This document shows positions 15,413 through 42,411 of a DNA stretch of 50,741 bases, piece after piece. The first letter of the stretch is position 1, and every line of letters starts with the position of its first letter. The notes beneath the pieces are model-generated. The model was not told the origin of the DNA. It was given only the letters and a program-made list of their open reading frames with translations, and did not search any database. The stretch is taken from IMG/VR virus record IMGVR_UViG_3300028027_000075, positions 1 to 50,741 of that record; one strand, 5' to 3'. This DNA is from a virus. The position numbers were made by a program, and so were the translations under genes.

Positions 15413-16078
15413 ATGAAAGTTGAATTAATTTCAAAAACAATAGGTCTTGGAAGTTATAAAGAACTAACATCTGAAGAGATTGTATCAGCAGTAGCAAGAC
15501 ACGGTGTAGTTAAAGAGGACAATGGAAAGCTAATCAAATATCTTATGGATAATGCTCATTGGAGTCCACTTCAGCATGTGTCATTTGGTTTTAAAATAGA
15601 AACCTCAAGAGCTATATCAGCACAGATATTCAGACATAGAAGTCTGCATTTTCAAGAGACATCTCAAAGATACCAAGAGATACAAGAATTTGAAGATGTT
15701 GAGTTAAGAATGGAGCATCCTACAAACAGACAAAGTAGTACAGAAGTTTTTGATAAGGTTATAAATAAAAACTGGGAAGACTGGAGTTTATCAGATGAAG
15801 TTAGAGCAGCATTAGATGGCGCACTAGAGAGCTATAATTTGCTAATAAAGCATGGAGTAGCTAAAGAATGCGCTAGAATGATTCTTCCTATGTGTAGTAA
15901 AACTACCATACATGTTTCAGGAACACTAAGAGATCTATTAGCTTTCTTAAATGTTAGGTTAGATATTCATAGTCAAAAAGAAGTTAGAGATATTGCAAAC
16001 GCTATTGGAGAAGCATTAGAAAAAGAAATGCCTGGTGTGTTTAGTAATATAGATTGGAAGAACGGAATGTTTATGTAA
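15413..16078 (+). CDS. thyX: flavin-dependent thymidylate synthase ThyX
   Basis: 221 residues. The ThyX signature RHR-x7-S is present as RHRSLHFQETS (74-84) followed by QRYQ. The remaining layout (WSPLQHVSFGFKIETSRAIS; ARMILPMCSKTTIHVSGTLR; LRDLLAFLNVRLD) fits the family throughout. The enzyme makes dTMP from dUMP using FAD, NADPH and methylene-tetrahydrofolate, supplying thymidine for AT-rich phage DNA. Length is typical of the family. It is the last recognisable gene before the cassette block. Confidence 0.92.
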   Translation: MKVELISKTIGLGSYKELTSEEIVSAVARHGVVKEDNGKLIKYLMDNAHWSPLQHVSFGFKIETSRAISAQIFRHRSLHFQETSQRYQEIQEFEDVELRMEHPTNRQSSTEVFDKVINKNWEDWSLSDEVRAALDGALESYNLLIKHGVAKECARMILPMCSKTTIHVSGTLRDLLAFLNVRLDIHSQKEVRDIANAIGEALEKEMPGVFSNIDWKNGMFM

Positions 16079-16094
16079 TTAATACACTTAAATT

Positions 16095-16313
16095 ATGAAA
16101 TTAAAAATAACATTTGAACACTGGCACTATCAATGTGGGGATGGTTGTTGTGATAATTATGGAACTAATTTATACCTTAATGGTAAACAATTAGAACATC
16201 CTAATCCAGAAATACACGATAACGGATATTTAGGGGAAGATATAGAAACAGGATTACACGCAGTTTTAAAAGAATTAGGATACGAAGTTGAATTTAATAG
16301 CGAAATGGAATAA
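16095..16313 (+). CDS. hypothetical protein with Cys-rich patch
   Basis: 72 residues. A strand and the motif HWHYQCGDGCCDNYGTNLYL (about 9-28) suggest a metal or disulfide site. The rest is acidic with a helix (TGLHAVLKELGYEVEF). The stop codon lies inside the first hairpin of the cassette block, so the gene ends at the left border of that array. No complementary left end is seen upstream, hence it is probably resident rather than cassette-borne. Family unknown. Confidence 0.65.
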   Translation: MKLKITFEHWHYQCGDGCCDNYGTNLYLNGKQLEHPNPEIHDNGYLGEDIETGLHAVLKELGYEVEFNSEME

Positions 16314-16336
16314 CGTGTATATATGCGGTTATAGCC
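16309..16336 (+). repeat. attC-like site 1 (left border of cassette block)
   Basis: AATAAC (16309-16314) and GTTATAGCC (16328-16336) form the outer arms, with TAAC/GTTA pairing. The right-hand GTTATAGC belongs to the next unit, being complementary to that unit's distal end. AATAAC itself is complementary to GTTATT at 17814-17819, the right border of the block. It resembles an integron site core (AAC ... GTT) with a very short loop. Confidence 0.55.
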
Positions 16337-16352
16337 AGTTAATTTATTTATT

Positions 16353-16568
16353 ATGAAACATGTTTTAAGACAAGGCGAAATTGGATTAGTACAAGATTTA
16401 CTAATTTATGGCAAGGAATACGATTTATGGAGAGATGGCGATTACATTGGAACTGCAACTTATACTGATGACCCCAATATTGGTGATTGTTTTTTGAAAA
16501 CCATTATAAATGATAAAGGAGAGAAAGAATTTGAAGTTCATATTTCAGACCAGTGGATGTTTGCTTAA
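16353..16568 (+). CDS. cassette-borne hypothetical protein (unit 1)
   Basis: 71 residues, beta-rich (EIGLVQDLLIYGKEYDLWRD, YIGTATYTDDPNIGDCF), ending VHISDQWMFA. It could be a small SH3-like or OB-like fold. It is the only gene of unit 1 and starts 17 bases after the attC-like core, with the usual AT-rich leader (AATTTATTTATT). No family recognised. Typical of cassette genes, it is small, soluble and of unknown role. Confidence 0.65.
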   Translation: MKHVLRQGEIGLVQDLLIYGKEYDLWRDGDYIGTATYTDDPNIGDCFLKTIINDKGEKEFEVHISDQWMFA

Positions 16569-16571
16569 TTA

Positions 16572-16605
16572 GCCATAACGTTATCTCGCTTGCTCGTCGT
16601 TGTGG
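16572..16605 (+). repeat. attC-like site 2
   Basis: CCATAAC (16573-16579) pairs with GTTGTGG (16599-16605) over seven positions with one G-T pair. The 19 bases between are weakly paired. GCCATAAC is also complementary to the left end of unit 1 (16328-16335), and TTGTGG to the distal end of unit 2. It begins three bases after the unit 1 stop codon. Confidence 0.55.
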
Positions 16606-16675
16606 ATTTTTATGACAGATGCTTAGATTCAAGACAAATTATTATTCACTCAACAAACTATAAATTAATCCAGAT

Positions 16676-16707
16676 GCCACAATAGAGCAAAACACGCATT
16701 ATAATGC
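16676..16707 (+). repeat. attC-like site 3, degenerate, ending a noncoding unit
   Basis: CCACAA (16677-16682) matches the left end of unit 2 by complementarity. The right core TTATAATGC (16699-16707) matches the far end of unit 3 but is preceded by A instead of the usual G. A palindrome CGCATTATAATGCG spans the junction. The unit it closes (16600-16698) has no open frame longer than about 15 codons. Confidence 0.45.
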
Positions 16708-16736
16708 GTATGTGTGGTTAAAAACAAAAAGAACTT

Positions 16737-17090
16737 ATGAAAAATTTAAAAGTAGTATCATTAAATTCAGACGAAATTACGTTTGATAACGGAGTAAAAT
16801 TATACTCAAGTCACGACCAAGATTGTTGTGAGAATCATTATTTATCAATGAGTGATTTAACTATCGCTGATTTTGAAGGATTAGAATTTGACTTATCGAA
16901 TGATGATTTCTTTGAAAGAATTGAAGATTATGGAATTGCATTAAAACCTTTAAATGGTTTTCCTGTTAGAATACCTGGTTATGGAGATAACAATGGTTAT
17001 TATTCATCAAATTTAGATTTAATAATTACAAATGCTGACGGTCAAGGAGTTTATAAAGAATATAACATTTCCGAGTGTCAAGATTATTAG
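16737..17090 (+). CDS. cassette-borne protein, DUF7448-like (unit 3)
   Basis: 117 residues, acidic. KVVSLNSDEITFDNGVKLYS, then SSHDQDCCENHYLSMSDLTI matches a pattern I associate with an uncharacterised family (DUF7448-like) whose members carry DQDCCE-N/H-Y. The Cys-Cys-Glu-x-His cluster could bind metal. The C-terminal half holds a Gly/Tyr/Asn-rich stretch (IPGYGDNNGYYSSNLD). It is the only gene of unit 3, and the leader includes ACTT just before ATG 16737. Family assignment is by memory of the motif only. Confidence 0.6.
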   Translation: MKNLKVVSLNSDEITFDNGVKLYSSHDQDCCENHYLSMSDLTIADFEGLEFDLSNDDFFERIEDYGIALKPLNGFPVRIPGYGDNNGYYSSNLDLIITNADGQGVYKEYNISECQDY

Positions 17091-17116
17091 TTGTAGTAGA
17101 AACGATAAAGTAATAT

Positions 17117-17150
17117 GCATTATAACGTTTATCGACTTTGCGTTAGTGCC
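17117..17150 (+). repeat. attC-like site 4
   Basis: GCATTATAAC (17117-17126) and GTTAGTGCC (17142-17150) form the ends. TAACG pairs with CGTTA. GCATTATAA is the perfect complement of the left end of unit 3 (16699-16707), and GTTAGTG of the distal end of unit 4. It lies 26 bases after the unit 3 stop. Confidence 0.6.
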
Positions 17151-17191
17151 GTAATAGAATTACTAATAATCATTAAATTACAAGAGTTGAT

Positions 17192-17437
17192 ATGAAAAAC
17201 AAAAGTTCAAAACAAGCACCAAAGAAGGCATTACGCAAAACCGATGTTAGTGGCAGGTTATCTTCTTACCAAAAGATGAAACAGAATTACGAAGCAAGCA
17301 TACGTCAACTTACTGATGATATAATTACTTTGGTTGAAGAAAAAGACTTTGTGAAAGTAACAACCGTAAAAATGCAATGGCGTATGCGATTAGATAATGA
17401 AAAGATGATATGGTTCGGTTCGCCAACTTGCCACTAA
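17192..17437 (+). CDS. cassette-borne basic protein (unit 4)
   Basis: 81 residues with a strongly basic start (MKNKSSKQAPKKALRKTDVS) and a helical middle (YQKMKQNYEASIRQLTDDII). The basic tail may bind nucleic acid. Its stop codon lies inside the R'' core of attC-like site 5, a common arrangement in integron cassettes. Codons for the last residues (GSPTCH) run into the recombination-site sequence. No family recognised. Confidence 0.6.
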   Translation: MKNKSSKQAPKKALRKTDVSGRLSSYQKMKQNYEASIRQLTDDIITLVEEKDFVKVTTVKMQWRMRLDNEKMIWFGSPTCH

Positions 17438-17497
17438 CGTTTTGCAAATAGGCGAAGCGAAGCGATAGCAGAGTTTTGCTTATTTGCTGTTAGCACC
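17430..17497 (+). repeat. attC-like site 5, with long inner stem
   Basis: Outer arms CTAAC (17434-17438) and GTTAG (17489-17493) pair. After unpaired spacers the inner arms GCAAATAGGC (17444-17453) and GCTTATTTGC (17478-17487) pair over ten positions. The loop contains GAAGCGAAGCG, more GC-rich than the surrounding phage DNA. The order R''-spacer-L''-loop-L'-spacer-R' is that of classical attC sites. Confidence 0.7.
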
Positions 17498-17528
17498 AGT
17501 ACGGATTAATTAACTAAAAATAAATAAT

Positions 17529-17762
17529 ATGCACAATTTTAAATTAGGAGATAAGGTTTACCACCGAGCAGATGTTGCGCCTTTTGAAGTGGTAGGAGTA
17601 AGAAAAACAACAGTTGAAATACAAGGAGATTGGTCGGGTGGAACTCACAACGTAAATCAAAAGGCGTGGGTTAATCACACTGAAATTCAACCTTACGATG
17701 AAACTAAAGTGAAATACTATATTGAAGGTAAACCGTATCGTAATGGAATACCACTCACGTAG
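17529..17762 (+). CDS. cassette-borne hypothetical protein (unit 5)
   Basis: 77 residues. A beta-barrel-like pattern starts at MHNFKLGDKVYHRADVAPFE, with VVGVRKTTVEIQGDWSGG next, reminiscent of small SH3-like or KOW-type domains. It ends KPYRNGIPLT. The only gene of unit 5, with leader TAAAAATAAATAAT. No precise family. Its borders are the best conserved of the array (9 of 9 complementary bases). Confidence 0.65.
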   Translation: MHNFKLGDKVYHRADVAPFEVVGVRKTTVEIQGDWSGGTHNVNQKAWVNHTEIQPYDETKVKYYIEGKPYRNGIPLT

Positions 17763-17766
17763 TATT

Positions 17767-17822
17767 GGTGCTAACTGTCAGCTACACACTCGTTTTAATG
17801 GTGTGTAGCGCAAGTTATTGAT
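17767..17822 (+). repeat. attC-like site 6 (right border)
   Basis: GGTGCTAAC (17767-17775) is followed by the spacer TGTCA and the perfect nine-base stem GCTACACAC (17781-17789) / GTGTGTAGC (17801-17809). A loop of 11 bases, the spacer GCAA and the right core GTTATTG (17814-17820) complete it. TAAC pairs with GTTA. This is the clearest attC-type architecture in the window. Confidence 0.75.
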
Positions 17823-17853
17823 ATATTTATTTCACATAAAATTAAAAAAAACT

Positions 17854-18390
17854 ATGAATATAACAGAAGATTATTTACCAAAAGAAATGTTTTTAAAACT
17901 CAGAGATTATGTATTTAACTCTGAGTTTAAAGAATTTGATTCAGGAGAAAAGCTATTCTCTTATATAGAGACTCCAGATGATGTAAAAGAATTTATATCT
18001 AACGAACATGGAAAACCTATACTTACATTCATTAGAAGAGCTTATGAAGGATTCGATGAAGACCCAAGAATACATTGTGATGGTATCATAGCAGGAGTGA
18101 AACCACATAAGGCTATGGTATTGTATCTTAATGAAGAAGGGGAAGTTGATGAGAATGGTACTGCTTTTTATAGACACCAAGAACATGGGTGGGTATTTAA
18201 TTCAGATGAGGTTGAGTTTAATAGATTGCTACTTGAAGATAGTAATGACCTAAGTAAATGGGATCTAGTTTCTTATATACATTCAAAACCAAATAGAGCT
18301 ATTGTATATGATTGCAATATGTTTCATTCTAAATATCCTTATAAGATAACTAGTGGTGTTAGATATGTATTAGTAGCATTTTTAAAATAA
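17854..18390 (+). CDS. 2OG-Fe(II) oxygenase-like protein
   Basis: 178 residues from ATG 17854. A TTG start at 17818 is possible but lies in the cassette border, and the ATG has the usual A-rich leader. The C-terminal two thirds resemble the double-stranded beta helix of prolyl-hydroxylase-like oxygenases: RIHCDG (HxD iron ligands), a central EVDENGTAFYRHQEHGW, a distal MFHSKYPY (third iron ligand) and GVRYVLVAFLK (2-oxoglutarate-binding Arg). Phage members may modify proteins or bases. The substrate here is unknown. Confidence 0.65.
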   Translation: MNITEDYLPKEMFLKLRDYVFNSEFKEFDSGEKLFSYIETPDDVKEFISNEHGKPILTFIRRAYEGFDEDPRIHCDGIIAGVKPHKAMVLYLNEEGEVDENGTAFYRHQEHGWVFNSDEVEFNRLLLEDSNDLSKWDLVSYIHSKPNRAIVYDCNMFHSKYPYKITSGVRYVLVAFLK

Positions 18391-41511: not shown

Positions 41512-42411
41512 ATGGCTTACTTATATAGACACATTAGAAAAGACAAAAATGAAGTCTTTTATGTTGGAATAGGAACTGGAGCAAAAGGAAACTACGAAAG
41601 AGCTTTCAGTAAAAACAGAAATCACTTCTGGAAAAAAATCACAAGTATTACGGAATACGAAGTGGAAATAATGATTGAAGATGATAATATTGAATTTATT
41701 ATTGAAAAGGAAATAGAGTTTATATCTCTATACGGAAGAAAAGATTTAAAGAACGGAACTTTATGCAATCTAACTAACGGAGGAGAAGGGATTGTAAATT
41801 GTAGTAAAGAATCTAGACTTAAAATATCAGAGGCTAGAAGAAACCACAAAACATCAGACAAAGCTAAATTAGCTATCAGTAAGGCTACAAAGGGAGGTAA
41901 TAACCCAAGAGCATTAAAAGTGATAAACAAGGTATCTATGGAAGTATTTAATTGCCTGTCTGACGCAGCTTTATCTTTCGGAATTAATAAGAGAACATTA
42001 GGGTATAATTTGAACGGTAGGTTTTCTAATAATACAGATTTCTTTTACTACAACGAGTATTTAGAAAAAGGACTTGAAAAGCTAGAAGAAGAAAGATTAG
42101 CTAAAATAAACAAAATTAAAAATAGTGTTATTGAAAATACTAAGAATAGAATCGTGTCAGAAGAAACGAGATCTAAATTGTCAAAAACACTAAAAGGGAA
42201 GAAACCTTCTCGGAAGACTTTAGATGCACTAACAATTAGAAATCTACCAGAAAATAATCATATTAGTAAAAAGGTTGTGAATTTAGATACTGGAGAAGTT
42301 TTCTTTTCCATAAAAGATGCAGCTGAATCAGTAGGAAAATATAGAACGTGGTTGTCTATTAAACTAAGAGGCAAGATTAAAAACAATACTTCTTTTAGGT
42401 ATTGCAAATAA
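41512..42411 (+). CDS. GIY-YIG homing endonuclease with NUMOD DNA-binding repeats
   Basis: 299 residues. The GIY-YIG domain lies at about 1-95: AYLYRHIRK (GIY strand), FYVGIG (YIG strand), NHFWKKI and the catalytic Glu region IEKEIEFISLYGRK. NUMOD3 repeats follow at SKESRLKISEARRNHKTSDK and SEETRSKLSKTLKGKKPS, each before a linker. NUMOD1-like helix-turn-helix elements (NCLSDAALSFGINKRTLGYN and FFSIKDAAESVGKYRTWLSI) end it. It is read against the virion operon with its own promoter and terminator, so it is a free-standing mobile gene. Confidence 0.88.
   Translation: MAYLYRHIRKDKNEVFYVGIGTGAKGNYERAFSKNRNHFWKKITSITEYEVEIMIEDDNIEFIIEKEIEFISLYGRKDLKNGTLCNLTNGGEGIVNCSKESRLKISEARRNHKTSDKAKLAISKATKGGNNPRALKVINKVSMEVFNCLSDAALSFGINKRTLGYNLNGRFSNNTDFFYYNEYLEKGLEKLEEERLAKINKIKNSVIENTKNRIVSEETRSKLSKTLKGKKPSRKTLDALTIRNLPENNHISKKVVNLDTGEVFFSIKDAAESVGKYRTWLSIKLRGKIKNNTSFRYCK

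Follow-up and report, generated by a model that had tools for sequence, protein, structure and literature searches.

A record of 50,741 nucleotides from a Bacteroidota virus (50.7 kb; its whole length is "the window" below) probably carries a recombinase-less, CALIN-like array of four gene cassettes that belong to a distinct, widespread integron-like family. With less assurance, we favor a broader model in which Bacteroidota and their phages share a second capture system, independent of IntI, that would have its own XerA-like recombinase, an attI-like site and polarized sites, would hold genes in either orientation, and would have phages as a major cassette reservoir. Sequence comparison establishes the modularity of the cassettes, their compensating ends, an end signature, a polarity rule, linkage to a recombinase, and an attI-like motif in host genomes.

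The portal protein encoded in the window shares 67% identity with its counterpart in Flavobacterium elemo phages. A series of small same-strand genes separates thyX (15413-16078) from a DUF6445/oxygenase-like gene (17854-18390); among them a Pfam search recognized a sole family, DUF7448, in one gene. An Rfam search gave no match, and PADLOC gave one weak hit only. All array features are on the plus strand. The left boundary site (16309..16331; AACGTGTATATATGCGGTT) is degenerate and folds with a z-score of -1.0. Cassette 1 (16328..16579) has arms GTTATAGCCAGTTAAT and CTTAATTAGCCATAAC, paired at 7 of 9 positions and extended across a position-11 mismatch, and encodes a 71-aa protein of no known family (16353-16568). 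It is followed by a long inter-cassette hairpin site (16580..16697), in whose top-strand fold TTGCTC..TTGTGG pairs with CCACAA..GAGCAA, and then by cassette 3 (16698..17126; arms ATTATAATGCGTAT and ATATGCATTATAAC, best own-end arms TTATAATGCGTAT and ATATGCATTATAA), which encodes the 117-aa DUF7448 protein (16737-17090). A second long hairpin site (17127..17245; stem GCGTTAGTGCC..GGCATTACGC), of a type also present in locus L173, overlaps the 5' part of an ORF at 17192-17437. Cassette 4 (17246..17438) has arms GTTAGTGGCAGGTT and AACTTGCCACTAAC with the position-11 mismatch and an in-cassette coding sequence of 53 aa (17276-17437), the longer ORF running from 17192. The fold of the next hairpin (17439..17488) reads AAC, a 5-nt spacer, the stem, a 1-nt spacer and GTT. 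Cassette 5 (17489..17775; arms GTTAGCACCAGTACGG and TAGTATTGGTGCTAAC) encodes 77 aa (17529-17762), and its best own-end arms, GTTAGCACCAGTAC and GTATTGGTGCTAAC, are paired at 13 of 14 positions. The right-hand hairpin (17776..17813; fold z about -4) has the loop TCGTTTTAATG and is followed by phage DNA, GTTATTGATA; the same loop is found with other stems in L071, L073, L148, L173 and Polaribacter phage P12002L. Elsewhere in the window, a lone plus-strand gene amid minus-strand structural genes (41512-42411) has NUMOD3/NUMOD1 motifs, which suggests a homing endonuclease.

An earlier note on this DNA had read the region as five units and six sites, with unit ends complementary over 6-9 bases. 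We used an end-pairing test derived from other phages, which requires at least 7 of the 9 arm positions to pair, position 11 not to pair, and at least 3 of positions 12-15 to pair; it replaced a simple AAC/GTT stem score that did not separate known arrays from background. The test detects four consecutive units in a 1.77-kb region. The maximum was three consecutive units in 2,000 Markov shuffles, reached 7 times, and two in 104 other windows of the same phage. The array itself, its small same-strand genes and the AAC...GTT hairpin sites between them are as the note described, but the end-pairing test and the folds identify four cassettes (1, 3, 4 and 5). The gene-less "unit 2" (16580-16697) was rejected as a cassette: it supplies both arms of a single long hairpin that separates cassette 1 from cassette 3. 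Similarly, a cassette 4 start at 17142 was rejected in favor of 17246, inside the predicted ORF, where the L168-L171 homologues also begin. The complementarity of each cassette's own ends is real, but 6-9 bases is too short: pairing extends to about 14 bp, with position 11 as a fixed mismatch.

The cassettes have the general form GTT-N6-N-G-N4 ... gene ... N4'-T-N-N6'-AAC, and in the inter-cassette hairpin the spacer is 5 nt long next to AAC and 1-3 nt long next to GTT. In a position profile of 105 unique viral cassettes, chosen solely on 9/9 arm pairing, 60% are paired at position 10, 2% at position 11 and 79-86% at positions 12-14, with background reached from position 16. The dip at position 11 to 2%, where chance alone would give roughly 25%, is not a selection artefact. 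This position is G opposite T in 69 of the 86 cassettes with extended pairing. In a set filtered for pairing, N6 matches its own end at 5.86 of 6 positions, compared with 2.43 between different cassettes. The 48 IntI-linked cassettes from the same phylum show contiguous pairing over about 11 bp and then none, without a fixed mismatch (position 11 paired in 67%, later positions at background). The R' core fits GTTRRRY in 13/48 of these controls versus 4/86 viral signature cassettes. The viral loci from which the signature was derived also supply part of the counts; its derivation did not draw on the host recombinase loci, the IntI loci or P12002L.

Folding, which the earlier note had proposed as a check, gives long hairpins for circularized cassettes 4 and 5. 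Circularized cassette 5 forms one long hairpin (-20.7 kcal/mol on the top strand, z -7.3), and in its bottom-strand fold the position-11 mismatch and the 5-nt spacer remain unpaired, resembling the unpaired features of attC.

The signature end architecture marks 86 viral cassettes of 72 unrelated protein families at about 40 viral loci. Isolated phages with such units include Polaribacter P12002L, with three signature cassettes, Cellulophaga phi13:2, where the cargo is a DNA methylase, Tenacibaculum JQ, and Winogradskyella Peternella_1. DNA methyltransferases or methyltransferase-like proteins are a recurrent phage cassette cargo (L157, L143, L164, L165, L225, L209). Many Bacteroidota phages, and some host MAGs, contain the same cassettes and the same end architecture in different surroundings and in a different order, with homology breaking at the cassette ends. 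The earlier proposal of integron-like modular cassettes is thereby strongly supported, and it survives the check for genes that always occur together in one order. The cassette-5 gene, for example, is present in L071-L077, and homology stops at or a few bases from GTT and AAC (window versus L071, and L073 versus L076). Homologues of cassette 3 are cassettes in L017, L018, L021, L022, L024 and L053, and the DUF7448 gene is found on 36 viral contigs, in some as cassettes with different yet self-complementary ends and in some as a plain phage gene. The 5'-end pattern of cassette 5 retrieves 21 viral stretches with many different genes, and nearly all 3' ends match their own 5' ends. An exact 27-base hairpin core is found in 12 contigs, with differing upstream arms and several downstream arms, and the hairpins flanking near-identical cassettes often differ on both sides. 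Such hairpin turnover is not predicted by a simple, classical integron model. In L173, at about 2350-2400 and 2840-2880, we observed a gene-less mini-cassette, GTTATAAAATCGTTTTAATGTTTTATAAC, in which two cassette arms are joined by the loop TCGTTTTAATG, a loop shared with many inter-cassette hairpins; it hints either that hairpins are cassettes that have lost their gene or that hairpin loops can capture genes.

We found no case in which thyX and the oxygenase gene flank a clean empty site. A near relative, L058, has an oxygenase 97% identical to the window's, with a different ThyX and no array (window 15413-17853), and the block of thyX plus array seems to have been exchanged whole at gene boundaries.

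As the earlier note had observed, no integrase is visible: a profile search of the whole window, whose record may be a fragment, revealed no PF00589 tyrosine recombinase, and 30 of 33 cassette-bearing viral records lack one. Because the DUF7448 gene and the pattern GTT-N6-AGTACGG are nearly absent from the sampled host genomes, host arrays were sought through the recombinase. One of the three viral records with PF00589, G430 (6 kb), has its last cassette ending directly before a gene for a 266-aa recombinase. This protein scores best against NF040815 XerA (191 bits, below the cut-off of 220), is also below the TIGR02249 cut-off, and resembles the solved structures of XerC-like (4a8e), IntI4 (2a3v) and XerA (5hxy) proteins. 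Its relatives are found in 98 of 396 sampled Bacteroidota genomes at E < 1e-45. Of 30 loci with such XerA-like recombinases, 12 have signature cassettes alongside, whereas 0 of 30 IntI loci of similar size do, with a Markov null of about 0.05 per 10 kb; recombinase loci with no detected array are the majority of those sampled. In genome G001, the carrier of the DUF7448 cassette at L053, such a recombinase lies 50 kb away on the same contig, beside further signature cassettes. A separate candidate, phi13:2 gp038, was rejected as an IntI and is a phage-type recombinase (PF13102).

The note had also suggested looking for an IntI-type recombinase; the window has none, and the recombinases beside sibling arrays lack the IntI insert, with 60-68 residues between motifs compared with 107-109 in IntI. 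In a tree, the six placeable IntI proteins form one group (100/100) apart from the XerA-like recombinases. The array-linked recombinases are scattered in this tree, and the subclade associated with G/T arrays (G430, G001, G105) is rare in the sampled genomes. Sibling host arrays share a conserved attI-like motif, AAC-TNNTNTATAT, at the array/recombinase junction; near recombinase ends it gives 24 hits versus 2.5 expected, including at loci with no detected cassette. In G105, a cytosine-methyltransferase-like gene ends at an attI-like site. The window itself contains no attI site, and the junction motif of the sibling host arrays differs in sequence from the attI of integrons. Its leftmost site (16312-16327; AACGTGTATATATGC) has TATATG 5 nt after AAC, like the attI-like sites beside recombinases, and may be what is left of one.

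The position-11 mismatch is mostly G/T in phages and mostly A/C in host arrays, the host A/C mismatch being the phage G/T site read with the gene reversed. The left spacer is longer in 89/90 G/T sites (with a few T/T sites counted among them) and the right spacer in 25/26 A/C sites, such that mismatch polarity and spacer asymmetry are concordant in 114/116 sites. Where a recombinase is adjacent, the T side points toward it. Together with the tracking of the mismatch by spacer asymmetry, this means that site polarity is constant with respect to the recombinase while gene orientation varies. The genes of the window phage point along the flanking operon and are inverted relative to classical cassettes. 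A polarity test on homologous cassettes is weak, as their flanking hairpins usually differ, and we used a hairpin-centered comparison and spacer asymmetry instead. Among 48 pairs of near-identical hairpins in different contexts, the upstream arm is common to none and the downstream arm to 17, mostly from one hairpin family and hence not independent. In these comparisons the phage hairpin tends to accompany the downstream gene, as expected for inverted genes.

For the window's own array, it is quite possible, though not our preferred reading, that we are looking at a relic, captured once with thyX and now decaying outside of cassette traffic, a view that does not conflict with our preferred explanation of the family overall. 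The arms of cassette 1 pair at only 7/9 positions, cassette 3 starts with ATT (a GTT whose first base has become A), the left site has no inner stem, and the window has no recombinase; the array may be inactive because cassettes 1 and 3 have decayed. Cassettes 4 and 5 are nevertheless intact, a cassette 95% identical to cassette 5 stands in an unrelated context in L071, and such cassettes are found in many phages. Another alternative would deny cassette recombination altogether, with the ends and hairpins serving as terminators or RNA-stabilizing stems for small phage genes that homologous recombination has moved around. The position of the hairpins between co-directional genes, the joint swap of thyX and array at gene boundaries in L058, and a gene common to L018 and L020 that has no cassette ends in L020 would all fit this idea. 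We nonetheless judge it highly improbable: the pairing joins two gene ends hundreds of bases apart, and such features leave the obligate mismatch, the spacer polarity, the attI-like sites and the recombinase linkage unexplained.

An unlikely but more serious alternative is that these are ordinary Bacteroidota integron cassettes (CALINs) moved by classical IntI, with end features that represent a local attC dialect. IntI is over the TIGR02249 curated cut-off in 105/396 sampled genomes of the phylum, IntI-linked arrays there also pair their own ends, and in E. coli IntI1 recombined an attC of P12002L that may or may not be a signature site (PMC9892861), leaving room for IntI. However, the signature is found at 0/30 IntI loci, IntI regions totalling 375 kb yield few hits, none of them G/T or A/C, signature arrays adjoin recombinases of another clade that has an attI-like motif of its own, and 10 of the 12 genomes with an array-linked recombinase have no IntI match at the cut used.

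We compared the proposed IntI-independent system with known ones. Integrons and CALINs likewise have single-gene cassettes, hairpin sites between AAC and GTT boxes and own-end complementarity, and the sibling arrays resemble integrons in running up to an attI-like recombination site next to a tyrosine recombinase gene. In circular form, the 5' end of a cassette would complete its own site (own-end pairing; fold of circular cassette 5), and the predicted single-strand fold leaves polarity features unpaired (114/116 sites; bottom strand of cassette 5). The signature sites differ in their 14-bp arms, obligate position-11 mismatch, asymmetric 5/1-3-nt spacer and R' core, which rarely fits GTTRRRY, and the system differs in its recombinase without the IntI insert, its attI-like AAC-TNNTNTATAT and the inversion of phage genes relative to site polarity. 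We found no intI with the insertion beside the array, either in the window or among the sibling recombinases, and no GTTRRRY R' core as a rule; in the hairpin pairs, which are mostly one family and not independent, the site is not 3' of the gene it travels with. These differences support the non-classical system that the earlier note had suspected.

Known Xer proteins resolve chromosome dimers at dif, whereas the signature-linked recombinases adjoin cassette arrays, even though that of G430 is most similar to XerA by profile score. XerA, XerC and XerD are simple tyrosine recombinases (PMC8138268). The IntI-linked arrays of Bacteroidota (L081-L130) share the phylum, single-gene cassettes and own-end pairing of about 11 bp with the signature arrays, but have contiguous pairing, other hairpin sequences, and an IntI with a roughly 40-residue insert. 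Classical IntI, as at these loci, is far commoner in our Bacteroidota sample than published complete-genome surveys suggest. The earlier view that such an array would be unusual for a phage was too strong: phage CALINs were reported in 2023 (Qi et al. 2023; PMC9892861), among them that of Polaribacter phage P12002L, which has DNA methyltransferases and whose attC sites are described as having "divergent directions", and these phage arrays resemble ours in having no recombinase. Since P12002L has three signature cassettes, part of the signature family has already been seen as ordinary integron material. A search of the open PMC literature turned up no account of the position-11 signature, of the inverted orientation or of the insert-free recombinase; within that literature, what is new compared with the published phage CALINs is the distinct site class and its linked recombinase.

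Because the window has no tyrosine recombinase, we infer that its cassettes would be mobilized in trans. An excised cassette circle would regain a matched folded site, composed of its own 3' arm, the hairpin and its own 5' arm. The host or another element could then provide a XerA-like tyrosine recombinase that joins the circle to another such site or, alternatively, to the attI-like AAC-TNNTNTATAT beside the recombinase gene. The substrate of the recombinase would be folded single-stranded DNA, in which the position-11 mismatch and asymmetric spacer would confer polarity, as extrahelical bases do for attC. In this manner, cassettes could be exchanged between phages and hosts.

On the prevailing view, a single enzyme family defines integrons: IntI, which reads folded single-stranded sites by means of its extra insertion. 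If our model is true, an insert-free, Xer-type cassette system would mean that gene capture through folded sites arose or diversified outside IntI. Such a system could explain the near-absence of integrons from standard searches of Bacteroidetes, where IntegronFinder 2.0 reported just one complete integron for Bacteroidetes proper (PMC9024848). With sites this compact and an attI-like motif, conjugation assays already in use could address the question. Phages, in turn, would gain a modular route for swapping small genes, DNA methylases included.
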